The notes under the pieces were generated by a model, which saw nothing but the letters and a program-made list of their open reading frames with translations, did no database searches and had not been told where the DNA came from. 39,401 nucleotides of DNA from Oscillospiraceae bacterium (GTDB lineage Bacteria > Bacillota > Clostridia > Oscillospirales > CAG-272), in NCBI GenBank assembly GCA_015065215.1, contig SVQT01000016.1:1-39401 (forward strand). The letters are read 5' to 3'. Below are positions 214-32,972 of the stretch, in pieces (positions within the stretch are counted from its first letter, which is position 1; every line of letters begins with the position of its first letter). The translations under genes and the position numbers were made by a program.

Positions 214-242
214 TTGCTTTTTTTCGCAATGTATGCTACAAT
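214..242 (+). promoter_or_regulatory. SigA-type promoter for the DUF5058 operon
   Basis: TTGCTT at 214-219 and TACAAT at 237-242 are 17 bp apart. Transcription would start near 249, leaving a leader of about 155 bases before the ATG at 405. Confidence 0.75.
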
Positions 243-404: not shown

Positions 405-1202
405 ATGGAATTCAGTATCAATCACCCCTTGCTCTTTGTGCTGGCAGGTATCATCGTGCTGATCGTGCTTGCCCAGTCTGTCTTTTTCCTGCTCCTTGCC
501 TGGCGCCGCGGCGTCAAGATGGGAATGGAGAAAAAGAAGCTGCGCCGCATTGCCGTGAGCGCCGCCGTGTTCACCATCGCCCCCGCCATCGCGATCATCA
601 TCAGTATCGCGACGCTTTCTAAGGATTTGGGGCTTCCGCTCCCTTGGCTGCGCCTGAGTGTGGTCGGCTCGCAATCCTATGAGACCATCGCGGCGCAGAA
701 CACCCTGAGCGCCATGGGCTCTAAATTGGGTGGCGGCACGGTTTTGAACGCCTCTGCCTTCGTGACCATCGCGCTGGTCATGACCATCAGCATTATGGTG
801 GGCATCTGGCTGGTGCCGGTGGTGGCCAAAAAGATGCAAAAGGGCATGATCACCATGGAAAAGCGGGATAAGAAATGGTCGGATATTTTCAATGCCTCTA
901 TGTTTATCGGCATGATCGCCGCCTTCCTTGGCTTTGTATTCTGCGATTTTGGCTCGATCTTCAAGGGCGAGACCTACGGCCTGACCCCTGTGCTGGTCAT
1001 GATCGTATCGGCACTGACCATGGTGCTGGCCGGCCTTTTGGTTCGCCTGACCAAATGGCGCTGGATCAATGACTACGCCTTGCCGGTCAGTCTTGTGGTG
1101 GGCATGGCAAGCGCCATTCCGATCACAGCTTGGCTGGGTGTTGAGCCCGCCGGGGAGGTTGCCGCCGAAACGGCACGCCTTCTCACAACTGTATTTTGCT
1201 GA
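405..1202 (+). CDS. DUF5058-family integral membrane protein
   Basis: This 265-residue protein is strongly hydrophobic, with about six to seven membrane spans. The first (residues about 9-31) is followed by the basic stretch RRGVKMGMEKKKLRR. A loop near residues 87-110 holds SQSYETIAAQNTLSAMG, then come further spans and a basic loop KKMQKGMITMEKRDKKW near 146-162. The overall pattern matches my memory of DUF5058, an uncharacterised membrane family of Firmicutes often found beside a second membrane protein and an M20 peptidase. The next gene starts 17 bp downstream. The start has a good AAGGAG. Transport is a plausible role from the fold and context, but the substrate is unknown. Confidence 0.72.
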   Translation: MEFSINHPLLFVLAGIIVLIVLAQSVFFLLLAWRRGVKMGMEKKKLRRIAVSAAVFTIAPAIAIIISIATLSKDLGLPLPWLRLSVVGSQSYETIAAQNTLSAMGSKLGGGTVLNASAFVTIALVMTISIMVGIWLVPVVAKKMQKGMITMEKRDKKWSDIFNASMFIGMIAAFLGFVFCDFGSIFKGETYGLTPVLVMIVSALTMVLAGLLVRLTKWRWINDYALPVSLVVGMASAIPITAWLGVEPAGEVAAETARLLTTVFC

Positions 1203-1219
1203 AAAGGGGGGCAACGAAA

Positions 1220-1933
1220 ATGGATGAAAATCGCAATATAGAAACCGAAGCTGTTGTCGATACCGCGACCGAGGCAGGCGCCACTTATATGGACAAGGTG
1301 CATAAGTGGGGGCGTATCTGGAACCTTTCTATGGTACCGATCCTGTTCGCCTTCCCGATCATTATCGCTATTGTTTTTCAGGCCATCCCTGACTGGAAGG
1401 GCCTTGGCATGGGCCTTTTGGCCACCGCGCCGATGTACTGGGCGGTCGGCGTTGTAGAGACCTTTACCTATATCCCGATGCTTGGCGCGGGCGGCTCTTA
1501 CCTTTCCTTTGTGACCGGTAATATTTCCAATTTGAAGCTCCCCTGTGCGCTGGGCGCCTTGGATCAAGCCGGTGTGAAGGGCAGCTCAGAGGAGGGGGAG
1601 GTCATCTCCACCATCGCCATTGCCGTTTCCAGCATTGTCACCACCCTGATCATTATTTTGGGCGTGATCCTGCTGGTGCCGCTGACCCCCGTGCTGGAAA
1701 ATCCGGCGCTGGATCCCGCCTTTGCCCAGATCCTGCCTGCTCTGTTTGGCGGCCTTGGCGTGGTGTTCATCTCCCGGAACTGGAAGATCGCCATCGCGCC
1801 GATCGCGTTGATGCTGATTTTGTTCATCGCGATTCCCGCCTTGAATGAGGGCACTGTGGGTATTATGGTGCCGGTCAGCGTGATCTTTACGATGATTGTC
1901 AGCCGTATCATGTATAAAAAAGGTTTGCTTTGA
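1220..1933 (+). CDS. Integral membrane partner of the DUF5058 protein, function unknown
   Basis: The product has 237 residues, counted from the ATG at 1220, which has an AAGGGGG site upstream; an upstream in-frame start at 1196 overlaps the previous gene and is less likely. An acidic, soluble N-terminus of about 30 residues precedes about six membrane spans. Gly/Pro-rich turns lie between spans, for example ETFTYIPMLGAGGSYLSF and SFVTGNISNLKLPCALGALD. The conserved-looking TGNISNLKLPC loop between spans could line a substrate path (inference). It is co-transcribed with the DUF5058 gene before it and the M20 peptidase after it (11 bp gap), so the two membrane proteins probably act as a heteromeric complex. 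I do not recognise a named family. Confidence 0.6.
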   Translation: MDENRNIETEAVVDTATEAGATYMDKVHKWGRIWNLSMVPILFAFPIIIAIVFQAIPDWKGLGMGLLATAPMYWAVGVVETFTYIPMLGAGGSYLSFVTGNISNLKLPCALGALDQAGVKGSSEEGEVISTIAIAVSSIVTTLIIILGVILLVPLTPVLENPALDPAFAQILPALFGGLGVVFISRNWKIAIAPIALMLILFIAIPALNEGTVGIMVPVSVIFTMIVSRIMYKKGLL

Positions 1934-1944
1934 GAGGTGAGGGA

Positions 1945-3396
1945 ATGCCTGAAGCGTTACTGTATATTTTGTATGGCTTAGCGGGGGTGTTGGCCCTGCT
2001 GATAGCGGTTGTCTTGGTGCGGACCTTTACCTTTCGCCCCAAGACCTCCAAAAAGGAGATCGACACAGCTCCCGTCTCCTTTGACGGCGATGCCGCCGTC
2101 TGCGCGTTGCAAAAGCTGTTGCAGTGCAAAACGATCTCCTATCACGACCAAAGCCTTGAGCAGGAGGCGGAGTTCCAAAAATTGATCGATCTGCTGCCTG
2201 AGCTGTACCCGGAGGTCTATCGGGCTTGCGAGCTGCAAGCCTTGCCCGACCGCGCCTTGCTTTTCCGCTGGGCGGGTAAAAAGCAGGGGGCTCCCGCGGT
2301 GATGATGTCGCACTATGACGTGGTACCGGTAGAGGAGAGCGCTTGGCAAAAGCCGCCCTTTTCCGGCATCATCGAGGATGGTGTTTTGTGGGGCAGAGGG
2401 GCTCTGGATACCAAGGTGACCATGAACGCGGTGCTTTTTGCCGCCAATCACATGATCAAAGAGGGTTATGTGCCGGAAAATGATATTTATTTCGCTTTTT
2501 CCGGCGGTGAGGAGATCAACGGCCCCGGCGCGTTGCATATCGTCAATTACTTCAAGGAGCGGGGCATTACCCCCGCTTTGGTGGTGGACGAGGGCGGCGG
2601 CGTGGTGGAAAAGGTTTTCCCCGGTGTGAAAAAGCCCTGCGCGTTGGTCGGTATCGCCGAAAAGGGGATGCTCAATCTGACGCTGTCGATGGAAAGCAAC
2701 GGCGGTCATGCCTCGGCACCAAAGCCCCATACCCCCATCGGGCATCTTTCCCGCGCGGTCTGCAAGGTAGAGGATCATCCCTTCCCGATGCATACCACAA
2801 AGCCGGTGAAGGAAATGTTCGATACGCTGGGGCGGCACTCCACCTTTTTGTTCCGTATGATTTTTGCCAATCTCTGGCTGTTTGGCTGGGTGTTAAAGCC
2901 GATCTGCGCCAAAGGCGGTGATCTCAACGCCCTGCTGCGCACCACAGTGGCCTTTACCCAAAGCGAGGGCAGCTCCGCGCCCAATGTCATCCCGCCCAAG
3001 GCGTCGGTAACAGCGAACCTGCGTCTCAATCCGGCCGATAGCGTGCAGGGGGCGGTGGATCGGATCAGCAAATTGATCGGGAACGAGCAGATCAAGCCGG
3101 TGGTGGGGTATCATGTAGAGCCCAGCCGCATTTCCCAGACCCATTGCGACGCCTGGGATAAGATTGTCTCGGCGGTTGGCGGTACCTGGCAGGGCAGTGT
3201 TGTTTCCCCCTATCTCATGATGCAATGCTCGGATAGCCGCCATTGGGGCGCGATTTCTGATCACGTTTACCGCTTTTCCGCCATGGACCTCACCGCCGAG
3301 GAGCGGCGCACCATCCACGGCCATGACGAGCGCATCCGGTTGGATTGTCTCAAGCGCTCGGTGGAGTTTTATATCCGCCTCATGCGGCAATGCTAA
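1945..3396 (+). CDS. Membrane-anchored M20-family metallopeptidase
   Basis: This is a 483-residue M20 dizinc hydrolase (ArgE/DapE/carboxypeptidase group). I prefer the ATG at 1945, preceded by GAGGTGAGGG, over a TTG at 1930 that overlaps the upstream gene. Residues about 3-26 form one hydrophobic helix followed by RTFTFRPK, which suggests an anchor with the catalytic part on the cytoplasmic side. The M20 signature is complete: the metal-binding His in MMSHYDVVP, the bridging Asp in GRGALDTK, the Glu pair in FSGGEEINGPG, an Asp in VVDEGGG and a C-terminal His in IHGHDERI. A dimerisation (lid) domain lies in the middle. As the third gene after two membrane proteins, it may cut a peptide or N-acyl amino acid that they move (inference). 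Confidence 0.85.
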   Translation: MPEALLYILYGLAGVLALLIAVVLVRTFTFRPKTSKKEIDTAPVSFDGDAAVCALQKLLQCKTISYHDQSLEQEAEFQKLIDLLPELYPEVYRACELQALPDRALLFRWAGKKQGAPAVMMSHYDVVPVEESAWQKPPFSGIIEDGVLWGRGALDTKVTMNAVLFAANHMIKEGYVPENDIYFAFSGGEEINGPGALHIVNYFKERGITPALVVDEGGGVVEKVFPGVKKPCALVGIAEKGMLNLTLSMESNGGHASAPKPHTPIGHLSRAVCKVEDHPFPMHTTKPVKEMFDTLGRHSTFLFRMIFANLWLFGWVLKPICAKGGDLNALLRTTVAFTQSEGSSAPNVIPPKASVTANLRLNPADSVQGAVDRISKLIGNEQIKPVVGYHVEPSRISQTHCDAWDKIVSAVGGTWQGSVVSPYLMMQCSDSRHWGAISDHVYRFSAMDLTAEERRTIHGHDERIRLDCLKRSVEFYIRLMRQC

Positions 3397-3423
3397 TTGA
3401 CAAAATTGGTTTTCGTTAGCAAC

Positions 3424-3462
3424 AAAGCACCCTGACGGCATTTGCCGTCAGGGTGCTTTGAG
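3424..3462. terminator. Bidirectional terminator between the M20 gene and hpf
   Basis: The arms AAAGCACCCTGACGGCA and TGCCGTCAGGGTGCTTT flank a very small loop, with A and T runs on the outside. It lies between convergent genes and can serve both. Confidence 0.88.
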
Positions 3463-3465
3463 ATT

Positions 3466-3990
3466 TTATTCTTCCGCGATGATCAGGCCGTAATCGCCTG
3501 CCTTGCGGCGGTAGACCACGCAGGGCTCGTTTGTTTCGGCGTCACGGAAGACAAAGAACTGATGCTCCAGCAGGTTCATTTGCAAAATGGCTTCTTCTAC
3601 CGACATGGGCTTGATGGGGAAGGATTTGGTGCGGATTTTGAACTCGCCCTCTTCCTCCTCGTCTACATCATCGGGCAGGGGACTTTCAAAGGCACCGCTG
3701 CGCAAGCGCTTTTCCAGTCTGGTCTTGTTTTTACGGATCTGCCGCTCCAGCGACTCCATCGCTTCATCGATCGCGTTCTGAAAGCTCTCGGCACCCTCCT
3801 CACTGCGGAAGATGGTACCGCCGTAGTTGATGGTGATTTCTATATATTGCAGATCGTGCCTACAGCTGTAGACCACGATCGCCTCCGCGTCGTCGCCAAA
3901 GAAACGATCGAATTTGGCTAATTTCTTCTCGGTCAGATCCTTGAGGGATTGACGAACGGTCATTTGCTTTCCGCTAACAGTCATTTTCAT
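3466..3990 (-). CDS. hpf: Ribosome hibernation promoting factor, long form
   Basis: This is a 174-residue long-form HPF. The N-terminal part (residues about 1-95) has the YfiA/HPF beta-alpha-beta-beta-beta-alpha pattern (MKMTVSGKQMTVRQSL, then YIEITINYGGTIFRSEEGAE). After an acidic linker (DDVDEEEEGEF), the C-terminal domain carries IRTKSFPIKPMSVEEAI and ends in RRKAGDYGLIIAEE. In long-form HPFs the C-terminal domain mediates formation of 100S ribosome dimers at slow growth. The ATG at 3990 has AGGCGG seven bases upstream; a GTG at 4044 would add 18 residues with poor ribosome binding site spacing. It is a single-gene unit. Confidence 0.95.
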   Translation of the reverse strand: MKMTVSGKQMTVRQSLKDLTEKKLAKFDRFFGDDAEAIVVYSCRHDLQYIEITINYGGTIFRSEEGAESFQNAIDEAMESLERQIRKNKTRLEKRLRSGAFESPLPDDVDEEEEGEFKIRTKSFPIKPMSVEEAILQMNLLEHQFFVFRDAETNEPCVVYRRKAGDYGLIIAEE

Positions 3991-4064
3991 AGCAATTCCG
4001 CCTTTCTGTAACCGTAGGGTGCCGCGGGGAAGCCAAGCGGACACCTCCTCGGGTTTACAATTTC

Positions 4065-4092
4065 ATTATAGCACATCTTTTGTGAAAAATAA
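4065..4092 (-). promoter_or_regulatory. Probable hpf promoter
   Basis: On the minus strand a perfect TATAAT (4070-4065) lies about 75 bases upstream of the hpf ATG. The -35 region is AT-rich (TTATTT-like) and weak, so control by another factor or by SigB/SigH-type sigma factors cannot be excluded. Confidence 0.5.
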
Positions 4093-4147
4093 ATAGGTTT
4101 TTCGAAAAAAAATGAAAAAAATTGTGAAAAATTTCTGTTTTTCTGTC

Positions 4148-4183
4148 AAAAAACGCTCTGCGTCGCGACGCAGAGCGTTTTTT
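4148..4183 (-). terminator. Terminator of the esterase-lacI unit
   Basis: A perfect 24-bp palindrome (CGCTCTGCGTCG and its complement) is flanked by six A and six T. It sits four bases past the esterase stop on the minus strand. Confidence 0.9.
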
Positions 4184-4187
4184 GAGA

Positions 4188-4997
4188 TCAAAGCTCCTTT
4201 GCCCACTTGATGGCCAGCTCCACCCAGCAAGCGCAGTGTGGGTTGAGCAGATTTTCACTGCCCTTGGCGGTCTGCTCGTTGCAAAGGGCAAGGCCGTGGG
4301 GGCCGTTGGGGAAGATGTGCAGCTCGAAGGGTACCTTGGCTGCGGTCATGGCCTCTGCCATGAGCAGGGCGTTTTGCACAGGTACGCAGTTGTCATTGAA
4401 GGTGTGCCAGATAAAGGCGGGGGGCGTGGTCTCGTTGACGTGCAGCTCCAGCGAGAAGCGGTTTTCCTCCTCCTTGGTGGGGGTCTTGGTGCCGCAGAGC
4501 CTGTGGATCGAGCCCTTGTGTGCCCACTCACCCGCGGTGATCACTGGGTAGCACAAAATCATGCCGTTGGGGCGGTTGATCCCCTCTGGCGCTCCCTTTT
4601 GTATATCGGCCAAAACGGGGCTGTTCCAAAGCACGCCGGCGCTGGCGGCAAGATGTCCGCCTGCTGAGAAGCCGCAGGTGAAAATGCGATCCGGGTCGAT
4701 ATGATACTCCGGCGCGTGCTCGCGCACGTGCTTGATAGCCAGGGCAACCTGTTTTAAGGGGGCGTAATCCTTGGCGCCCTCGCCAACGCTATAGCGCAGG
4801 ATAAAGGTGGCAAAGCCCGCGGCAAGGAACTGGGTGGCGATCGGCTCTGCCTCACGGTCAGAGAGCGCGCCGTAGCCGCCGCCGGGGCAAACGATGACGG
4901 CCTGCCGGGGGGTGAGCTTTAGCTCGGCGGTGTTAGAAACGCAAATAGGGGTCAGGGTGGCATCCTGATGGCCAAGGGCAATGGTTTGGTAGATCAT
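4188..4997 (-). CDS. Alpha/beta-hydrolase esterase, acetyl/feruloyl xylan esterase type
   Basis: The product has 269 residues with an alpha/beta-hydrolase fold. The oxyanion-hole motif VCPGGGYG is at residues 37-43, the nucleophile elbow GFSAGGH has Ser111, the acid is probably Asp202 in FNDNCVP, and the base is His234 in GPHGLAL. The order and the GGGYG/SAGGH signatures fit the esterase_lipase/BD-FAE type that removes acetyl or feruloyl groups from plant xylan. No signal peptide is seen, so it would act in the cytosol on imported oligosaccharides. It lies 12 bp downstream of a LacI-family gene in the same direction, which suggests sugar-controlled co-expression. Exact substrate specificity cannot be read from sequence. 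Confidence 0.82.
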   Translation of the reverse strand: MIYQTIALGHQDATLTPICVSNTAELKLTPRQAVIVCPGGGYGALSDREAEPIATQFLAAGFATFILRYSVGEGAKDYAPLKQVALAIKHVREHAPEYHIDPDRIFTCGFSAGGHLAASAGVLWNSPVLADIQKGAPEGINRPNGMILCYPVITAGEWAHKGSIHRLCGTKTPTKEEENRFSLELHVNETTPPAFIWHTFNDNCVPVQNALLMAEAMTAAKVPFELHIFPNGPHGLALCNEQTAKGSENLLNPHCACWVELAIKWAKEL

Positions 4998-6134: not shown

Positions 6135-6240
6135 TGAAGAGTAAAAGCTGTGGCGTCAAGTGCCGACGGGACGGGGAGTTGCCGGTCGGACGAAGGGCAA
6201 AAAAGTTTGTTCCGCGGTCACCGCTTTGCATCCCGCTTCA
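6135..6240 (+). promoter_or_regulatory. Tetrahydrofolate (THF, folT) riboswitch
   Basis: The core elements of the THF riboswitch appear in order: AGAGTA, GGCGTCAAGTG, a P3 stem CCGAC/GTCGG, GGACGAAGGGC, TTCCGCGGTCACC and GCATCCCGCTTCA. P1 closes by TGAAG (6135-6139) with CTTCA (6236-6240). P2 pairs AAAGC with GCTTT (6226-ish). The GGGAC loop near 6168 can pair with GCATCCC, as in the known pseudoknot. The gene downstream carries FolT, the usual partner of this class. It most likely lowers expression when reduced folate is plentiful. Confidence 0.88.
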
Positions 6241-6262
6241 TCCAAAGAATTGAGAGCGAACG

Positions 6263-6296
6263 CCTCCTTTTTTCGATGAAATTCGGGAAAGGGAGG
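6263..6296 (+). promoter_or_regulatory. Hairpin that can hide the folT ribosome binding site
   Basis: CCTCC (6263-6267) can pair with GGAGG (6292-6296), the Shine-Dalgarno sequence of the ATG at 6305. No U-rich terminator lies between the aptamer and the gene, so control is probably at translation. Pairing is seen in the sequence; switching is inferred. Confidence 0.6.
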
Positions 6297-6304
6297 TTTT
6301 TGAT

Positions 6305-8188
6305 ATGCAACATGAAGCAAAAGCGGCCGCTTGCCGCCCCGGTAAACGCGGTTTCACACACCAGCTGCGTCGCGACTTGACGGTTTTTGGCAATTTACGG
6401 GTCCTTTGCCTTGCGGCAATGCTGGCGGCAATGGGCGTGGTATTGGGGTATATTGCCAAATTGCTTTTTGGTACGGGGCCCCTGCGCATCACCTTTGAAA
6501 ATCTGCCGATCATATTCGGCGGTGTCACCTTCGGCCCCTTTATGGGGGCCGCCATCGCGCTGATTTCCGATCTTTGCAGCTGTCTTTTTTCGGGGCAGGG
6601 TCCCAACCCCTTGATTGCGGTTGGCTCCGCTTCTATTGGCTTGCTTTCCGGCTTTTTGGGGAATTACCTTTTCCGCCGCCGCCGCTTTTTTCCTTTGCTT
6701 TTGGTAGAGCTGCTGACCCACCTCGTTGGCTCGGTGACGGTAAAATCACTGGCACTGCATGCAATGGGCTATGCCTGGCCGCTCTTACTCCCCCGTATTC
6801 CGATCTATATCGGCATCGCCTGCTGTGAGGCGGCGCTGCTGCGTGTGCTGTTGCAAAGCCAGCATTTGATACAGTTGCTGGAGAAAGTTCATCCAAGCAA
6901 AAAGGAGCGCTTGACTATGACGTATGACGAGGCGATTGCCTATATCCATTCGGTCAGCTGGAAAGGGAGCCGGCCGGGGCTGACACGAATGACAGAGCTG
7001 CTTGGCAAATTGGGCAACCCGCAGGATAAGCTCCGTTTTATCCATGTGGCGGGTACCAACGGCAAGGGCTCCTTTTGCGCCATGACCGAGTCGATCCTGC
7101 GTGCCGCGGGCTATAAGACCGGACTGTTTGTTTCCCCCTATATCAAGGATTTCAATGAGCGCATCTGCGTTGCCGGTGCCCCCATTGGCAACGAGGACTT
7201 GGCAAGGGCAACCGCGATTGTGCGGCCGGTGGCGGACAGTATGGCGGATGCTCCCACTGAGTTTGAGCTGATCACCGCTATTGGCTTTGTGCATTTTCTC
7301 TCCTGCCAATGTGATATTGTCGTGCTGGAAACCGGCATGGGTGGTAGATTGGATTCGACCAATGTGATCAAAGCGCCGCTTTTTGCTGTCATTACCGGCA
7401 TCGCGATGGATCATATGTCCTTTCTCGGTGATACCGTAGAAAAAATCGCCGCCGAGAAGGCCGGCATCATCAAGCCCGGTGCCCCGGTGCTGTGGGGGGG
7501 CAGAGATGCCGCCGCCCGCCGGGTGATTGCCGATAGGGCCGCTGAAATGGGCTGTACGATGATTGCGACCGAAGATACCCCCCTGACGGTACGGGAAATG
7601 ACGCTTTCCGGTACGGTTGCCGACTATGGCGAGTGGCAGCAGGTGCGTCTGCCGTTGCTTGGCAGCTATCAACCGCGCAACCTTGCCAATGTATTGGCGG
7701 CAGTTCCCTTGATGCGCGGGGCAGGCCTTTCTGTTTCCGACGAGGCGGTGCGCGCGGGGCTTGCCACGGCGCGCTGGCCCGGCCGCTTTGAAAAGCTTTG
7801 TGAGAACCCGCTGATTTTTTCTGACGGTGCCCATAATCCCGAAGGGGTGGAGGCGGCGGTAGAGAGCATCAAGACCTATTTTCCCGGCGAGAAGGTGTTG
7901 CTTCTTTTAGGCGTGATGGCGGATAAGGACTATCGCGGCATGGTAGAGGCGCTGGCTCCTGTTGCCGCCGAGGCGTTCACTCTGACCCCCGATAATCCCC
8001 GTTCGCTTCCCGCCGCTGATTTCGCGAAGGCGTTTGCCGAGGGCGGCGTCCCCGCCACTGCCTTTGACACGGTTGAAGAAGCGGTCCGCACCGCGGTGGC
8101 AAGGGCCAAAGAAACCGGCAAACCGCTGATCTCGCTGGGCTCGCTTTATATGTATTGCGAAGTGACCAACGCCCTTGAAAAGCTCTGA
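6305..8188 (+). CDS. folC: FolT-FolC fusion: ECF folate transporter S component plus folylpolyglutamate synthase
   Basis: This is a single 627-codon frame. Residues about 30-195 form a six-helix ECF substrate-binding (S) subunit of the FolT type (GVVLGYIAKLLFGTGPLRI, LPIIFGGVTFGPFMGA). From Met205 to the end lies a full FolC of 423 residues: ATP-binding loop HVAGTNGKGS (about 248-256), ETGMGGRLDSTN, and DGAHNPEG in the C-terminal domain. FolT would bind folate at the membrane together with the shared ECF energy module (encoded elsewhere). FolC adds glutamates and so traps folate in the cell. Met205 (6917) has its own AAAGGAG, so free FolC may also be made. The fusion is unusual: most FolT proteins stand alone. 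A sequencing error is a minor alternative, but no second stop-proximal gene pattern is seen. Confidence 0.9.
   Translation: MQHEAKAAACRPGKRGFTHQLRRDLTVFGNLRVLCLAAMLAAMGVVLGYIAKLLFGTGPLRITFENLPIIFGGVTFGPFMGAAIALISDLCSCLFSGQGPNPLIAVGSASIGLLSGFLGNYLFRRRRFFPLLLVELLTHLVGSVTVKSLALHAMGYAWPLLLPRIPIYIGIACCEAALLRVLLQSQHLIQLLEKVHPSKKERLTMTYDEAIAYIHSVSWKGSRPGLTRMTELLGKLGNPQDKLRFIHVAGTNGKGSFCAMTESILRAAGYKTGLFVSPYIKDFNERICVAGAPIGNEDLARATAIVRPVADSMADAPTEFELITAIGFVHFLSCQCDIVVLETGMGGRLDSTNVIKAPLFAVITGIAMDHMSFLGDTVEKIAAEKAGIIKPGAPVLWGGRDAAARRVIADRAAEMGCTMIATEDTPLTVREMTLSGTVADYGEWQQVRLPLLGSYQPRNLANVLAAVPLMRGAGLSVSDEAVRAGLATARWPGRFEKLCENPLIFSDGAHNPEGVEAAVESIKTYFPGEKVLLLLGVMADKDYRGMVEALAPVAAEAFTLTPDNPRSLPAADFAKAFAEGGVPATAFDTVEEAVRTAVARAKETGKPLISLGSLYMYCEVTNALEKL
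6901..6919 (+). promoter_or_regulatory. Internal ribosome binding site and start for the FolC domain
   Basis: AAAGGAG (6901-6907) lies nine bases before an in-frame ATG (6917), exactly at the border between FolT and FolC domains. FolC made from here would be 423 residues, the usual family length. Confidence 0.65.
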
Positions 8189-8488: not shown

Positions 8489-9271
8489 ATGCCACAAATT
8501 GTGTGCAACATTGCGCTGGATGTTGCGGTGAATAACATCGAGCAAATGCTGAGCGCAAAGCAGGGGGATACCCAAAACCGTTTGCTTTGCGTCACATTCA
8601 CCGATTGCGGAAAACCGCTGCCGATCGAAAAGGATGCGGTGGTTTTGCTGAATGTAAAAAGCGGGGAGGCGCGCGCTTCTTTTGAAGGGACAGTCACCAA
8701 GGAGGGGAAGGCACTTTTTGCTATTCCGGATTTTGTGCTTGTTAAGGCCGGCAGTGTGCAATGCGATGTCTCTGCCATCACTCCAAACGGCGGCCGACTG
8801 ACAACCGCCGCCTTTGGTATTTTGGTCGAGCCGGCCATCTGCCCCTCGGGAGAGGTGAGTAACGATGCCGCCGTTTCGGATCTCGCGGCCGATTTCATCG
8901 CCTCACAGCGGCTTTTGACACTGACCCCGCAGCCGCGCGAGACGGGCTATGTGATTGCCCCCGAGATTAATCACAAGTACTGCCTGGATCTGTCTGACAG
9001 CCGCTATGCCCCCGGTGGCGTATGGGCGAATTTCCGGCTGGAGCTGCCTGTGCCCACCAACGCCACAAAGGAGAATTGGATTTTGATCTATTGTCATGCT
9101 CCGATTACCGCCGAGGCGGGTGCTGTTTCGATTGATTTTGGCAGTGATTGCCTGTTTGCGGACGCGAGAGCGCCAATGGTTTCACTTTCTGATTTTGATA
9201 TTGTTTGTACCTATTCACGTGGGGCCGGTTGCTGGCAGGTCGGCGTGGTGCAATATGCTAAACAGGGGTAA
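8489..9271 (+). CDS. Phage baseplate/tail-like protein with BppU-type N-terminal domain
   Basis: The product has 260 residues and a strong AAGGAGG before its ATG. Residues about 1-115 follow the pattern of the BppU N-terminal domain (DUF2479): LDV near the start, AKQGDTQNRLLCVTFTDCGK, a VLLNVKSG strand, and ILVEP at the end. That domain anchors receptor-binding or baseplate proteins in phages of Gram-positive bacteria. The rest (about 140-260) looks like a beta-rich domain (NHKYCLDLSDSRYAPGGVWANFRLELP), perhaps for binding or attachment. The next gene starts five bases after the stop. There are no head, portal or lysis genes nearby, so this is a tail module without a prophage. The family call comes from pattern memory and is moderate. 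Confidence 0.5.
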   Translation: MPQIVCNIALDVAVNNIEQMLSAKQGDTQNRLLCVTFTDCGKPLPIEKDAVVLLNVKSGEARASFEGTVTKEGKALFAIPDFVLVKAGSVQCDVSAITPNGGRLTTAAFGILVEPAICPSGEVSNDAAVSDLAADFIASQRLLTLTPQPRETGYVIAPEINHKYCLDLSDSRYAPGGVWANFRLELPVPTNATKENWILIYCHAPITAEAGAVSIDFGSDCLFADARAPMVSLSDFDIVCTYSRGAGCWQVGVVQYAKQG

Positions 9272-9276
9272 ACGGT

Positions 9277-10482
9277 ATGAGTTTTTCTTTAAAACAGCAT
9301 AGCCTGCTGCGTGAAAGCCGCCGCCCGCTTGCCTATTCGGTATCCTTTCCGGATCCCACTGTGCTCACCGGTGTGAGAGAGGATATGGCGGTAGGCATGG
9401 TGGCCAATGTCGCCATTGGCGACAATGTGATTGTGCGCAACGATTTTGACAGAGTCCCTATTTTCCAGCGGCCGATTTTCAATGCGACCTGGGATGGCGG
9501 AAAGGGGCGTTGGGTGGATTTTGTCGCCCGCGGTGAGCCGGGCTTTACGTATCATCCATCCGACCCTTACCGTGAGGTAATCTATCGCTGTCAGCCCTTT
9601 TGGTATCAGATAGAGCTGCGGGAGGGAACCGGCCCTGCCAGGGTCTCTGTTTCGCCGTACCCCTTGGAGGGGTATACCTTGGCGCCAATGTTCCCCAATG
9701 AGCGGGACTATATCTACCGTCCTGTTTTTGAAATGAGCGTGGGGAAGGACAATTTGCCGCATTCCCGTTCCAACCAGTGGGCGTTTCGCGGCAAAGGCTT
9801 GAGCGAAATTATGCAGTATGTAGCCGCTTATGATCCCCGTGCCAGAGTTGAGAGCGTTTTTGACTGGTTCAGTGACGCGCTGCTGTTGCTGGTGGAGTTT
9901 GCCACATGGGATCTTGCCTCGTATATGAGAGGGAACTTCACGCGCGAGGTCACCACTGGCTTAGGGGTTACTCACACCATTGCAAGCTCGGGATGCCTCC
10001 TGGACGGCGCGCCCATTGTGTGGCGCGGCAAAGAGAACGCTTGGCAAAATGTTTGCTCCTTCCTTTGTGATATTTTAATCCAAAAGCATATCGCCGCGGA
10101 TGGCAGCTATACCACCACCATTTGCCACCTGCCAGATCTGAAATATTTTGACGGCACCATCAATGAGCATTATGTAGAGATCGCCCCTTATTTTTCCAAT
10201 ATTATCAGAGGTCAATTCCCAGTTGGCGGCTTTGATATGAAAAAAGGCGTTTTCTATCCTTCCAGCGGCATTACGGGGGATACGGCCATCAAATCCTATG
10301 CCTATATCCAAAGCCAGCTGGGCGAGGAGTTTCCCATTGTGGTTGGTGTTGGCGGCGGTACCAGTTCGCAAATGCTCCCAGCTGATGTGAACGGTTCGCC
10401 CTTCCATTGGGAGGCTGTGCAAAAAGAGCAGTCCAGAGAGCAAAATTTTGGCGCCAGACTGATTTTGGACGAGGCGCTGTAA
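9277..10482 (+). CDS. Tail-fibre-like protein with C-type-lectin-like C-terminal fold
   Basis: The product has 401 residues. The N-terminal part (about 1-170) is beta-rich and unassigned. From about residue 180 there are features of formylglycine-enzyme/C-type-lectin-like domains used in phage tail tips: GLSEIMQYVAAYDPRARV, then APIVWRGKENAWQNVCSFL (the family pattern is often WRGIENPWGNIWEW). At the very end VGVGGGTSSQ and QNFGARLILDEAL resemble the closing strands and final GFRL/GARL motif of that fold. Such proteins are common targets of diversity-generating retroelements, but no reverse transcriptase or template repeat lies in this window. It is paired tightly with the BppU-like gene upstream. 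The likely role is host or surface recognition. The fold call is moderate. Confidence 0.45.
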   Translation: MSFSLKQHSLLRESRRPLAYSVSFPDPTVLTGVREDMAVGMVANVAIGDNVIVRNDFDRVPIFQRPIFNATWDGGKGRWVDFVARGEPGFTYHPSDPYREVIYRCQPFWYQIELREGTGPARVSVSPYPLEGYTLAPMFPNERDYIYRPVFEMSVGKDNLPHSRSNQWAFRGKGLSEIMQYVAAYDPRARVESVFDWFSDALLLLVEFATWDLASYMRGNFTREVTTGLGVTHTIASSGCLLDGAPIVWRGKENAWQNVCSFLCDILIQKHIAADGSYTTTICHLPDLKYFDGTINEHYVEIAPYFSNIIRGQFPVGGFDMKKGVFYPSSGITGDTAIKSYAYIQSQLGEEFPIVVGVGGGTSSQMLPADVNGSPFHWEAVQKEQSREQNFGARLILDEAL

Positions 10483-10501
10483 AAATACGAAGCGAGGCTG
10501 A

Positions 10502-10527
10502 GCACACCTGCCACGTGGCAGGTGTGC
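10502..10527. repeat. 26-bp perfect palindrome
   Basis: The left arm GCACACCTGCCAC is followed directly by its exact complement with no spacer. There is no T run after it, so it is not a standard terminator. It could form a cruciform or RNA hairpin after the tail-like gene (stop at 10,482). Confidence 0.75.
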
Positions 10528-10530
10528 AGT

Positions 10531-10710
10531 GATATAAATCCCTTGCGGGATTGGCGATATTCCCTTTGAGAGCGATATTTGCCTATGACAAGCGATATGT
10601 GCTGTGGGGCGTAGGGGGGATTTATATCATATCGCAACCGAATGAAATGAGGTTGTATTGCATCGGGGCGCAAGCGAAGATATAGCGCGTTTGCGGAGCA
10701 AACATATAAA
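10531..10710. repeat. Modular palindromic repeat block with GCGATAT units
   Basis: Outer 12-bp arms GATATAAATCCC (10531-10542) and GGGATTTATATC (10617-10628) enclose three GCGATAT units at 10554, 10572 and 10592, spaced 18 and 20 bp. After the outer arm come further short inverted pairs: CAACC/GGTTG, and GTTTGC/GCAAAC at 10689-10703. I recall mosaics of this type as non-coding dispersed repeats in Clostridia; their role is unknown. Confidence 0.65.
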
Positions 10711-10856
10711 GGGCATTTGTGACCACAAACGCAGTGCTTGTTCAAGTAAAGAGGACCGGAGAACGCAAAGGTTGTTATCCTTAACGGAAAAATAACCCGA
10801 AATCGAATAGGACTTGAAAAGGCTACCATTCCAACAATACGATATGAAATTATTTC

Positions 10857-10897
10857 AAAAGGAAGTGGATATGAGCCTTCACAACCACTTCCTTTTT
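10857..10897 (+). terminator. Terminator before the AT-rich cassette
   Basis: The arms AAAAGGAAGTGG and CCACTTCCTTTT with a 16-base loop are followed by TTTTT. The stretch before it (10,711-10,856) has no clear gene; a 49-codon open frame ends at this hairpin but lacks a start. Confidence 0.75.
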
Positions 10898-10930
10898 AGA
10901 AAATGAATCTCGTTTAAATTAGGCCAAAAG

Positions 10931-10959
10931 TTGACTTTTTGTTTTGAAAATGGTATAAT
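10931..10959 (+). promoter_or_regulatory. Distal promoter of the AT-rich cassette
   Basis: TTGACT (10931-10936) and TATAAT (10954-10959) are 17 bp apart. Transcription from here would give a leader of about 200 bases before the first gene at 11,167. Confidence 0.8.
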
Positions 10960-11055
10960 AATTGTGAAAGAAAAGGAAAACTCTCGTTTGTTCGGTGTGA
11001 TTTTCATCAGTTGATAACAAAAACACATAAATTTAAAATATGTCTCTTTAAAGTC

Positions 11056-11084
11056 TTGATTTTTGGGAGAAAATATGTTATAAT
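11056..11084 (+). promoter_or_regulatory. Proximal promoter of the AT-rich cassette
   Basis: TTGATT (11056-11061) and TATAAT (11079-11084) are 17 bp apart. It lies 125 bp after the distal promoter and about 75 bp before the first ATG. Confidence 0.8.
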
Positions 11085-11166
11085 GTCTCATCTGTCGTGC
11101 GAAACAATATGTTACTTTCATCGTATACTAGTGTTGGCTAACAAAATGAAAAGAGGTTATGATTAA

Positions 11167-11382
11167 ATGAGAAAAACAACACAATCCCCCACAAAAGGAT
11201 TGACAATCCAAGAAACAGATAACTACAATGATGTAAATTTGGCTGCCTTGGATGCCCATATTGAACGGTCGCTTACTGGTACTGCGCGCCAAGTATATAC
11301 TTTAATCCAAGTTAATGCTCCGTGCAAAGTAACAGTTACCGAAAAAAGCCAAAAAAAGTTGGCGAAAGTTGTATTAAGCTAA
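11167..11382 (+). CDS. Small protein of unknown function, first gene of the AT-rich cassette
   Basis: The product has 71 residues, is soluble and mixed in charge, with no membrane span and no motif I recognise. AGAGG lies ten bases before the ATG. The middle (DVNLAALDAHIERSLTGTA) is probably helical, while the C-terminal third (CKVTVTEKSQKKLAKVVLS) is basic and strand-like. Two good promoters precede it and the second gene begins four bases after its stop. AT-rich codon use sets it apart from the neighbouring core genes, a sign of recent acquisition. The size and position would suit an antitoxin-like or regulatory partner, but nothing in the sequence proves that. Confidence 0.65.
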   Translation: MRKTTQSPTKGLTIQETDNYNDVNLAALDAHIERSLTGTARQVYTLIQVNAPCKVTVTEKSQKKLAKVVLS

Positions 11383-11386
11383 TAAA

Positions 11387-12124
11387 ATGAGCAATCAGTT
11401 TGTCTTCCTAAGTCCTGTGTCAGTGTACGATGATAAGATTTTTACCCAAAAAAGGGCGACAGAATGGAAGCAACATATTCGAACGGCATATAATGTTATA
11501 TATCGTGGCTTGTTTGACAAGTTGGATAATTCAACAAAAGTTCGTTTTTTTGTGTGCAAATCTTTGGTAGATGAAGTTGTCGTTGATGCCATTATAGGCA
11601 TGCGAAAAATCATTGATAGTAGATATAATTCCATAGAAGATCCGAATTCTTTTAAGATTATTTCTTATTTGACTTATTGGTGGTTGAGGCACAAACCTGT
11701 AAGCATACATTACGGAAAAGACTTTTGCCTTGAGGACATAAAATTGAGCCCTACTCCCGAACTATCTGCAATGTCAGAGGAAAAGCGTGAGGAAGAAAGG
11801 CAAAAGGTCGTTTGGCAATTAAAACATATCAACGAGTTGATTGCGGTACAGATGTCTTTAACCTATATATTCGATTTTGAAAATCGCATATGTGACAATG
11901 CTTCTTGTAAAAGAGTGAAAAGGAAAGAAAAAGACAAATTCTGCTTTGAAACTTTCGATGAAATGCAGGAAGTTATAGTGAAAAAACTAACATATTACTT
12001 TTGTTATCGTACCGTAGCGCCCAAAATAATTGAGCATATTTTAGAAGGTTATACTTTTCATCCTGCTTGGGGATTAACTGGTTCACAATGGGCTAGTGCA
12101 AAAGTTGAAGGTGACGCACCGTGA
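11387..12124 (+). CDS. Unrecognised 245-residue protein, second gene of the AT-rich cassette
   Basis: The protein is predicted soluble and mostly helical. There is almost no ribosome binding site and the ATG lies four bases after the previous stop, so translation is probably coupled. Visible parts are an amphipathic N-terminal half (residues 25-85), an aromatic stretch KIISYLTYWWLRHKP (90-104), a charged helix rich in Glu/Arg/Lys (about 128-145), and a Cys-containing segment CDNASCKRVKRKEKDKFC (Cys169, 174, 186) that could bind a metal but does not match a known zinc-finger pattern. No nuclease, ATPase or HTH motif is evident. It shares the last four bases (GTGA) with the third gene. The cassette position next to phage-like genes makes a defence role thinkable, as inference only. 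Confidence 0.75.
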   Translation: MSNQFVFLSPVSVYDDKIFTQKRATEWKQHIRTAYNVIYRGLFDKLDNSTKVRFFVCKSLVDEVVVDAIIGMRKIIDSRYNSIEDPNSFKIISYLTYWWLRHKPVSIHYGKDFCLEDIKLSPTPELSAMSEEKREEERQKVVWQLKHINELIAVQMSLTYIFDFENRICDNASCKRVKRKEKDKFCFETFDEMQEVIVKKLTYYFCYRTVAPKIIEHILEGYTFHPAWGLTGSQWASAKVEGDAP

Positions 12125-29878: not shown

Positions 29879-30919
29879 TTGGAACTTCGTGAACTGATCC
29901 CCGCCATGGCGGGGCTGATGAGCATCACCGGGTACGAGACCTATGATGCCGAAAAGCTAACTGCGATGACGCAGGGGTTTGATGAGGCACTGACCGACGC
30001 TGTGGGCAATCGGATTTTCATCCGCCGTTGCGGGCGGCAGAACGCCCCCAAGATTTTGATTGATACCCACTTTGACGAAATCGGCCTGTATGTGTCTGAT
30101 ATTCGGGAGGGGGGCTTTCTCAAGGTGGTGCCGATCGGCGGCCTTGACGGGCGGACCCTGCCCTCTGCCGACGTGAAAATTTACGGCAAGCAGGTGTTGG
30201 AAGGCGTGATCGCCTCTACGCCCCCCCATTTAAAGGAAAGGGACACCAAAGAGGAGGTGAGCCCGGCGGAGGAGCTGCTGATTGATACCGGTTATCCCAC
30301 GCAGGAGCTAAAAGAGCTGGTGCGTGTTGGCACGCCGGTGGGCTTTGCCCCCCGGTATCAGTGGCTGCAAAACGACCGTCTGATCGGCAAGGGACTGGAT
30401 AACAAGGCGTGCTGCGCCATCGCGGCCCACGCCCTGCGTGAAATTCCGGCACAGGCGCTGGCGGGAGATGTTTATCTGGTTTTTGCGGTGCATGAGGAGA
30501 CTGACCCCGTGGGCGGCACCGCGGTAGGCGGCTTTGCCATCGAGCCGGATTACGCGATGGTGATAGACGTGAATATCGCTCACGCGCCGGGCAGTAAGGA
30601 GAGCCAGACAGTGGAAATGGGCAAGGGCCCCTCGCTTTGCCGCAGCGCGATAACCGATCGCGCGCTGACCAAGATGACCGAGGCGCTTTGCGCCGAAAAG
30701 GAGATCCCGTGGCAGCGCTGCGTGGATGCCACCTCTACCGGAACCGATACCGTTGCGCTGCATTTGGTTGGAAAAGGGATTCCCGTGGTTGATGTGGGCT
30801 TGCCGCTTCGCGCCATGCACACCTATGTGGAAATGCTGGATATGCGGGATGCGGAGGACTTGGCGCGATTGGTACAAGCCTTTGTGTGTGACAAAAAGAT
30901 CGGGGAGGTGTTTGCGTGA
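29879..30919 (+). CDS. M42-family aminopeptidase, paralog 1
   Basis: The product has 346 residues with a TTG start supported by AAAGGAAG nine bases upstream. It has the dizinc ligand set of M42 (tetrahedral aminopeptidase/endoglucanase-like): His64 (IDTHFDEIG), Asp174 (KGLDNKA), Glu206/Glu207 (HEETDPVGG), Asp230 (VIDVN), His314 (AMHTYVE). These enzymes form dodecameric cytosolic shells that trim peptides from the N-terminus. It overlaps the next paralog by four bases (GTGA). Confidence 0.9.
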   Translation: MELRELIPAMAGLMSITGYETYDAEKLTAMTQGFDEALTDAVGNRIFIRRCGRQNAPKILIDTHFDEIGLYVSDIREGGFLKVVPIGGLDGRTLPSADVKIYGKQVLEGVIASTPPHLKERDTKEEVSPAEELLIDTGYPTQELKELVRVGTPVGFAPRYQWLQNDRLIGKGLDNKACCAIAAHALREIPAQALAGDVYLVFAVHEETDPVGGTAVGGFAIEPDYAMVIDVNIAHAPGSKESQTVEMGKGPSLCRSAITDRALTKMTEALCAEKEIPWQRCVDATSTGTDTVALHLVGKGIPVVDVGLPLRAMHTYVEMLDMRDAEDLARLVQAFVCDKKIGEVFA

Positions 30920-31974
30920 AAAGCGGCGTTGAGCTGATCGAAAAATTGGCGCTTTGCTTTGGCCCCTGCGCTTGTGAGGGGGAAGTGGAGCAGGCCATCC
31001 GTGAGGAGCTGGCACAGAGCCGTGCCACGCTTTCCACCGACCGCATGGGCAACCTGACCGCGCATCTGGCGGGGCCGGAGGGGGCCCCCCGCATCATGCT
31101 GTCCGCTCATATGGACGAGGTCGGCTTTATGATCACCTATATTGAAAAAGAAGGCTTTCTCCGGTTTGATACGGTGGGGGGCATTGACCGCGCGGTGATC
31201 TCGGGCAGAGCGGTTCTGCTGGGCGACGAGACAAAGCGGATCCCCGGCGTGATCGCGGCCAAGGGCATCCACCAACAAACCGCGAAAGAGCGCAAGGCGC
31301 TCCCCGAGCTGAGCGATCTTTATATTGATATTGGCACCAAAAGCAGAGAGGAAACCGAAAAAGTGCTGGAACGGGGTGACTTTGGCGTGTTTGACACTCG
31401 CTTTGCCCGCTTTGGCAAGGAGGGCGCTTATATCAAATGCAAGGCGCTGGACGATCGCCTGGGCTGTGCTGTTTTGATCGAGGTCTTGCGCGCGGTGGAG
31501 GAGAAGGCGTTGCCGCTGGATCTCTGGTTTTGCTTTACGGTGCGTGAGGAGATTGGCAAATCCGGTGCCGGCGTGACCGCCAATCGACTCCAACCGGACT
31601 TTGGCATTATTGTAGAGACCACCGCCATTGCCGATGTGGCAGACGTAGAGCCCGCCCGCCGGGTAGCGACAGTGGGGGAGGGCGGCGTGCTTTCGCTGCT
31701 TGACCGTTCTACCGTTTATGATCGGGCGCTCATCGACTTTGCCCTGGAAACGGGTGCGAAATACGCAGTTCCGGTACAGGTCAAGCGCTATGTTTCGGGC
31801 GGTAATGACGCGGCCCACGTTCAGCGAAGCGGCGCGGGTGTGCGCTGTATGGCGCTTTCCGCCGCCACCCGCTATCTCCATGCACCGGTTTCGGTGGCTG
31901 CCGTGCGGGATTATGAAAATATGATCGGTTTGCTGACCCATATGCTGACCGACTGGAAAGAGGAACTCAAATGA
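30916..31974 (+). CDS. M42-family aminopeptidase, paralog 2
   Basis: The product has 352 residues with a GTG start inside the stop of paralog 1. Ligands are the His in SAHMDEVGF, Asp in KALDDRLG, the Glu pair in VREEIGKSG, Glu in IIVETT and His in RYLHAPVS. Glu replaces Asp at the fourth ligand, as in the glutamyl-aminopeptidase type, which may mean a different specificity from its two neighbours. It overlaps paralog 3 by ATGA. Confidence 0.9.
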   Translation: MKSGVELIEKLALCFGPCACEGEVEQAIREELAQSRATLSTDRMGNLTAHLAGPEGAPRIMLSAHMDEVGFMITYIEKEGFLRFDTVGGIDRAVISGRAVLLGDETKRIPGVIAAKGIHQQTAKERKALPELSDLYIDIGTKSREETEKVLERGDFGVFDTRFARFGKEGAYIKCKALDDRLGCAVLIEVLRAVEEKALPLDLWFCFTVREEIGKSGAGVTANRLQPDFGIIVETTAIADVADVEPARRVATVGEGGVLSLLDRSTVYDRALIDFALETGAKYAVPVQVKRYVSGGNDAAHVQRSGAGVRCMALSAATRYLHAPVSVAAVRDYENMIGLLTHMLTDWKEELK

Positions 31975-32972
31975 TACGAACCCTAAAGAAAATGCTGCCC
32001 GCGACCCCATCTGTTTCGGGGCGAGAGGGCGGCGCGCGAGAGATCATTGCCGGTGTGATGCGCCCTTTGTGTGACGAGGTGCGCGCCGACCCCATGGGCA
32101 ATCTCATCTGCCTGAAAAAGGGCAGTGCCGCCAGCCCCCGTAAGGTGATGCTTTGCGCGCATATGGATGAGATCGGCTTTATTGTGAATTTTATTGAAGA
32201 GAATGGCTACCTGCGCGTGGCCCCCATCGGCGGCATTTCTTATACTGCCGCCGCCTTTACCGAGGTCGTGTTTGAAACAGGCGTGAGGGGCGTGCTGGTG
32301 CCCGAGGCCGATCTGCCCGCCAAGGAGGCGCCCAAGGCGGAGAAATGCTATGTGGATATTGGCGCTACCTCCCGCCGCGAGGCGGAGCGCCGCGTGAAAA
32401 TTGGCGATTGCTGCGCCCTGACCTCCCGCTTGACACGGCTGAACGCCAACCGTGTGGCAGGCCGCCCCTTGGACGACCGCGTCGGCTGTGCTTGCCTTAT
32501 CCAGATCGCCAAGGCGCTTACCGCGCCTGCCGATGATATTTACTATGTCTTCTCGGTGCAGGAGGAGGTGGGCTGCCGCGGCGCCAAAACCGCCGCCTTT
32601 GCCATTGGTGCCGATCTGGCGCTGGTCTATGATGTGACCGGCACCGGGGATGAGCAGGGCAGTAAGCCGATGGCGGTGAAGCTGGGCGAGGGGGTTGCCG
32701 TTAAGATCAAGGACCGTTCGGTGATCTGTGACCGCGCGCTGGTGGACGAGCTGTTGGATCTGGCAAAAGCCAACAAAATCCCCGCGCAATGCGAGATCCT
32801 GACCTATGGCGGTACCGATACCTCCGCCATTCAAATGACCGGCTTTGGTTGCCGCGCGGGTGCCCTTTCGATTCCCACCCGCTATATTCACTCGGGTGTA
32901 GAGATGATCGACCTGCGTGACGCGCAAAACGCGGTGCGGCTGACGGTGGCATATTTGGGAGGTAGCAAATGA
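31971..32972 (+). CDS. M42-family aminopeptidase, paralog 3
   Basis: The product has 333 residues, the shortest of the three. Ligands are the His in CAHMDEIGF, Asp in RPLDDRVG, the Glu pair in VQEEVGCRG, Asp in VYDVTGTGD and His in RYIHSGVEM. It begins in the stop of paralog 2 and ends by overlapping the PLP-enzyme gene (ATGA). The three M42 subunits could assemble into a mixed complex (inference); their parallel expression in one operon would allow this. Confidence 0.9.
   Translation: MIRTLKKMLPATPSVSGREGGAREIIAGVMRPLCDEVRADPMGNLICLKKGSAASPRKVMLCAHMDEIGFIVNFIEENGYLRVAPIGGISYTAAAFTEVVFETGVRGVLVPEADLPAKEAPKAEKCYVDIGATSRREAERRVKIGDCCALTSRLTRLNANRVAGRPLDDRVGCACLIQIAKALTAPADDIYYVFSVQEEVGCRGAKTAAFAIGADLALVYDVTGTGDEQGSKPMAVKLGEGVAVKIKDRSVICDRALVDELLDLAKANKIPAQCEILTYGGTDTSAIQMTGFGCRAGALSIPTRYIHSGVEMIDLRDAQNAVRLTVAYLGGSK

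Follow-up and report, generated by a model that had tools for sequence, protein, structure and literature searches.

What do two membrane proteins of unassigned function do in front of a peptidase? The question is raised by positions 405-3396 of contig SVQT01000016.1 (assembly GCA_015065215.1) from an Oscillospiraceae bacterium, a stretch of 39,401 nucleotides that is called the window below. Three real genes form a tight same-strand run there, with intergenic gaps of 17 and 11 nucleotides:

405-1202, forward strand: P1, a DUF5058 membrane protein of 265 residues (PF16481, 2e-65)
1220-1933, forward strand: P2, an unnamed membrane protein of 237 residues, recognised by its conservation and its pairing with DUF5058
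1945-3396, forward strand: P3, an M20 metallohydrolase of 483 residues (PF01546, 1.8e-25)

We propose that P1 and P2, as two subunits of one importer, take up N-acyl amino acids or small peptides for hydrolysis in the cytoplasm, and give this reading a probability of about 0.62. It builds on three observations: the pairing of P1 with P2, the coupling of the pair to a hydrolase, and the repeated replacement of that enzyme. No paper naming DUF5058 was found in the literature searched, a search that left subscription journals mostly outside.

P1 belongs to PF16481: the match scores 221 bits against a cut-off of 28.2 and covers positions 1-222 of 222. Hydropathy predicts six membrane segments, together with a conserved loop (residues 68-121) that contains R83 and E93; the loops at 28-48 and 141-160 are strongly positive. 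Across 28 diverse homologues, P60, G76, R83, E93 and G105 are invariant. In the hydrophobic P2, five membrane segments are predicted, and residues 57-133 form a long conserved hydrophobic stretch. Neither its single sequence (searched against Pfam, NCBIfam and PDB) nor a set of 28 diverse homologues (against Pfam and PDB) found a match. P2 has the motif E80-x5-P-x-LG-x4-Y-x2-F-x2-GN-x2-N-x3-P; across the 28 homologues G31, G89, Y94, G100 and P108 are invariant, E80 and N101 nearly so. The residues of both proteins that are conserved from bacteria to archaea, several of them within long conserved loops, are candidates for the substrate site. In one genome (G079; loci L018 / L126) the P1 gene has an in-frame TGA, and that copy may be broken. 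Descent of P1 and P2 from ancient paralogues, which would make them half-transporter subunits in the manner of the IT superfamily, was considered on a weak profile alignment; reversed and shuffled profiles scored equal or higher, so the idea is not supported.

How firmly the two proteins belong together was assessed in 399 genomes drawn evenly from the phylum, in which DUF5058 was counted above its curated cut-off; many of the surveyed genomes are metagenome assemblies. DUF5058 occurs in 31 of the 399, and P2 in every one of these 31, adjoining P1 save where a contig breaks (G384). When the P2 alignment was searched in reverse against these 399 genomes, it gave one extra good match, partial and without P1 (G276), and two further matches with E near 5e-4 and internal stop codons. 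Of the 58 genomes searched as relatives, 13 others also carry the pair, and at 80 loci fetched with P2, P1 is present unless the contig begins inside the cassette. In this neighbourhood survey the gene order recurs far above chance. A preliminary description of this DNA had worried that the three genes might frequently be separated. Within the draw, P1 and P2 are split only by contig breaks and in the one partial P2; it is P3 that is swapped, in distant lineages.

An amide or peptide hydrolase, adjacent and on the same strand, accompanies the pair in 27 of the 31 drawn genomes by our tally. The remaining four have a PGA_cap protein only (G292), a PGA_cap protein and then an M20 (G369), or no enzyme (G218, G265). 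For background, 30 drawn genomes hold 288 M20 genes, about 1 per 250 kilobases or ~0.4 per cent of genes. At a generous 3 per cent chance each, at least 26 hydrolase neighbours out of 30 would have a probability near 1e-28, which serves as an illustration, related genomes not being independent. In a wider set scored by script, 117 loci had an adjacent enzyme, 9 had none and 4 lay at contig ends; four of the nine were wrongly scored, P3 being present (L091, L096, L110, L030), which leaves L075, L103, L131, L143 and L195. In the window's own clade the gene after P2 is P3. Other loci carry different partners:

M20D (TIGR01891): L124, L126, L127, L132, L133, L139
AbgB-like M20: L128-L130, L134, L136
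PRK06133 glutamate carboxypeptidase-like M20, then an Amidohydro_3 protein: L141
C45 amidase: L125
PRK09061-type (acyl-amino-acid deacylase-like) amidohydrolase: L137
Xaa-Pro-dipeptidase-like amidohydrolase: L140
M42 peptidase: L142
PGA_cap (CapA-like) protein directly after P2: L135, 7148-8524, and L138, 2840-4180, where an M20 comes next

A quick tree of P1 plus P2, with several long branches, requires at least nine changes of enzyme type. What the partner families share is cleavage of an amide bond linking an amino acid with an acyl, aroyl or aminoacyl group. That P3 is swapped mostly for other amide or peptide hydrolases argues for a coupling of transport and cleavage. Since the type of enzyme varies between lineages while the pair stays, an importer of modified amino acids or small peptides is the most likely function.

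P3 itself is an M20 enzyme, its matches to Peptidase_M20 and to M20_dimer (PF07687, 7e-13) both lying above cut-off. The metal and catalytic residues H123, D125, D155, E189, E190 and D215 each reach a conservation of 97 per cent or more among 92 sequences, and the last histidine is present in GHDE (459-462). The best NCBIfam matches are PRK08262 models (NF006113), at 324 bits against an equivalog cut-off of 503; the PRK08262 / PM20D1-like family is thus the nearest to P3, whose score falls below the level for membership. We take the PRK08262 branch of M20 to be linked to PM20D1 and CPS1. PM20D1 is secreted (PMC7145423); P3, unlike it, is predicted to be anchored, with a cytoplasmic domain. The window's own genome holds five M20 genes, two of them M42-type.

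On which side of the membrane does P3 work? Hydropathy gives it one N-terminal membrane segment, residues 7-25. Among 90 orthologues with a clear anchor, lysine and arginine are more numerous after the anchor than before it in 89, equal in 1 and fewer in 0, with means of 3.5 after and 0.2 before, where 15 residues after the anchor are compared with a short stretch before it and start codons were chosen by rule. Under the positive-inside rule, this distribution predicts an N-terminus on the outer side and a cytoplasmic catalytic domain. The early concern that the peptidase might face away from the transport side is eased by this prediction, which, in 89 of 90 orthologues, suits import followed by cleavage. 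The first account of a DUF5058 protein, a second multi-span protein and an N-terminally anchored M20 is likewise borne out by family matches and hydropathy; its start for P3 at 1930 is an alternative TTG, to which we prefer the ATG at 1945, preceded by a purine-rich ribosome site. Replacement enzymes mostly start at the catalytic domain and have no anchor, so the anchor is dispensable to the design and characterises the P3 clade. At L103, where no P3 follows the P1-P2 pair, a P3-like M20 (3679-4995) lacking the N-terminal anchor lies upstream of the pair in divergent orientation.

In the mechanism that we propose, P1 and P2 would be two subunits of one membrane carrier, importing N-acylated or N-aminoacylated amino acids (N-acyl amino acids and dipeptide-like conjugates). 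This carrier would probably be secondary and ion-driven, as suggested by cassettes seen without an ATPase: none was found as part of those examined. The N-terminal anchor would hold P3 on the inner membrane face, its catalytic domain reaching into the cytoplasm, where it would cut the amide bond, release a free amino acid together with an acid or a second amino acid, and pull uptake forward. In other lineages another cytoplasmic amide hydrolase would serve this carrier pair. For the two membrane proteins, carrying amide conjugates is the simplest function; transport, its inward direction, the substrate class and the secondary energy coupling are what we infer. The transport-and-cleavage unit first suggested for the locus is partly supported.

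Known systems offer models for such a unit. The closest analogue is DUF969/DUF979, also two unlike small membrane proteins beside a cytoplasmic peptidase (pyroglutamyl peptidase or 5-oxoprolinase). They were proposed to form a heteromeric 5-oxoproline transporter (PMC11467057), and a C. jejuni mutant lends support to this role (PMC12795558). DUF969/DUF979 (IT superfamily) differ from the P1-P2 cassette in their partner enzymes, and profile comparison found no sequence relation to P1 or P2, so kinship is not supported. Two of our loci (L198, L199) have DUF969, a protein of ~305 residues in the DUF979 position and, by eye, a pyroglutamyl-peptidase-like open frame. In E. coli, YjiH/YjiG and the isoaspartyl dipeptidase IadA likewise place two membrane proteins and then a dipeptidase in one gene run. 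The Gate domain PF07670 is present in both YjiH and YjiG, and P1 and P2 do not match it; profile comparison gave kinship less than 1 per cent probability, against 99.9 for YjiH with YjiG, and does not support it. For p-aminobenzoyl-glutamate, the carrier AbgT is combined with AbgA/AbgB, a cytoplasmic M20 amide hydrolase, and several P1-P2 cassettes have an AbgB-like M20. AbgT is a known uptake carrier (PMC6002978). It is a single protein with a family of its own, and P1-P2 do not match it in Pfam. By these comparisons the cassette would work like all three systems, but as a separate protein family.

Beyond Bacillota, the evidence comes from records of plasmids and from a small number of spirochaete contigs. 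DUF5058 is found on six haloarchaeal plasmids from five genera, and on all five that were fully read, P2 is present and is followed by an M20-type amidohydrolase. Four of these five cassettes (L191, L192, L193, L196) adjoin glycine cleavage, lipoate (lipA) or serine hydroxymethyltransferase genes; from these glycine-related neighbours, the haloarchaeal substrate may be one that yields glycine. On a Paracoccus plasmid the amidohydrolase precedes the pair, two spirochaete contigs carry the pair with P3 (L091) or without it (L075), and around the pair in Paenarthrobacter no enzyme was found. The cassette is old or mobile.

Several results weigh against an importer. P1 and P2 matched no transport family, fold or solved structure; their AlphaFold models are poor (predicted local distance difference test 59.5 and 66.7, predicted template-modelling score 0.41 and 0.40), and a PDB fold search with the P2 model gave nothing with E < 1. 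Some pairs have no neighbouring hydrolase (L075, L131, L143, L195), L103 has its M20 on the opposite strand, and L135 has only the PGA_cap protein. Gene context does not separate import from export. P1-P2 could export or equilibrate the product of the hydrolase, a free amino acid or acid, with the substrate entering otherwise: context and P3 topology fit this equally well and an ATPase is not required, but the partner enzymes share an amide-linked substrate while their products vary more, and we regard such a role as unlikely. A shade less plausible still is a P3 that works synthetically and joins acids to amino acids, the resulting N-acyl amino acid leaving through P1-P2 as a signal or waste product. 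This would fit the gut origin of many close relatives, which are metagenome-assembled genomes; most replacement enzymes, however, belong to known hydrolase families (M20D, AbgB-like, glutamate carboxypeptidase-like, M42), and several haloarchaeal cassettes adjoin amino-acid breakdown genes.

The lack of homology between P1-P2 and transporters would also suit a membrane platform, or a membrane-embedded modifying enzyme for amphipathic amide substrates, in which the invariant R83 and E93 of P1 and Y94 of P2 could be catalytic. Yet P1-P2 contain no recognisable protease or hydrolase motif, their conservation is mostly of Gly, Pro and Asn within hydrophobic stretches, and most partner enzymes, being unanchored, would need no platform; we find this role as improbable as synthesis and export. 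A coincidental operon of unrelated functions, already disfavoured, might be read from the loci where an enzyme is absent; given that 27 of 31 evenly drawn genomes have a hydrolase next to the pair, where the background is about 0.4 per cent of genes, and given the recurrence in archaea and several bacterial phyla, it is very improbable indeed. Import with cytoplasmic hydrolysis is the reading we prefer. Its generalisation stands, in our judgement, at even odds: DUF5058 and P2 would form an unrecognised family of two-subunit secondary importers for amide-linked amino acid conjugates in bacteria and archaea, with repeated exchange of the hydrolase in the cytoplasm, and the substrate of a given cassette could be read from its partner enzyme.

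The surroundings of the cassette in the window contain further features:

about 1-126: 3' end of an rpsU-like small ribosomal-protein gene, identified by eye
234-242, forward strand: possible extended -10 promoter element TGCTACAAT, found by eye, with a poor -35
3423-3460, forward strand: strong terminator-like hairpin of 17 pairs, after P3
3466-4014 or 3466-4044, opposite strand: ribosome hibernation factor gene with S30AE domains

A single promoter had been assumed for the three genes. The tight same-strand run keeps this plausible; the consensus scan upstream of P1 found no promoter, missing also the TGCTACAAT element, and an Rfam search of the P1 leader returned no riboswitch or other RNA match. 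Both convergent transcripts could use the hairpin at 3423-3460 as the same terminator. Positions 258-350 hold what is left of a low-molecular-weight phosphotyrosine phosphatase gene, part of its 3' end (GGDVPVPWYTDRFDTAFADSLAGCTALLQK), with a stop codon just upstream; in the close relatives L044 and L045 an intact phosphatase gene (LMWPc 9e-27 for L045) lies immediately 5' of P1. The remnant suggests either a deletion that brought rpsU next to the cassette or a join made in assembly.

Elsewhere in the window, positions 6135-8188 hold a tetrahydrofolate riboswitch (78.6 bits) and, downstream of it, a single frame of 627 residues, which joins the S component of an energy-coupling factor transporter to Mur-ligase middle and C-terminal domains. 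From its domains, we read it as a putative FolT-FolC fusion, in which folate uptake would be fused to polyglutamate trapping. Three consecutive proteins without a Pfam match, possibly of phage origin, are encoded at 8489-12124, and three tandem M42 aminopeptidase genes with overlaps of a few bases at 29879-32972.

With the cassette, a domain of unknown function gains a testable role, and a near-constant partner is named for which the searched libraries contain no family model. The partner enzymes supply a list of candidate substrates. In gut bacteria, the cassette could serve as a marker for the consumption of N-acyl amino acids or of host or diet conjugates.
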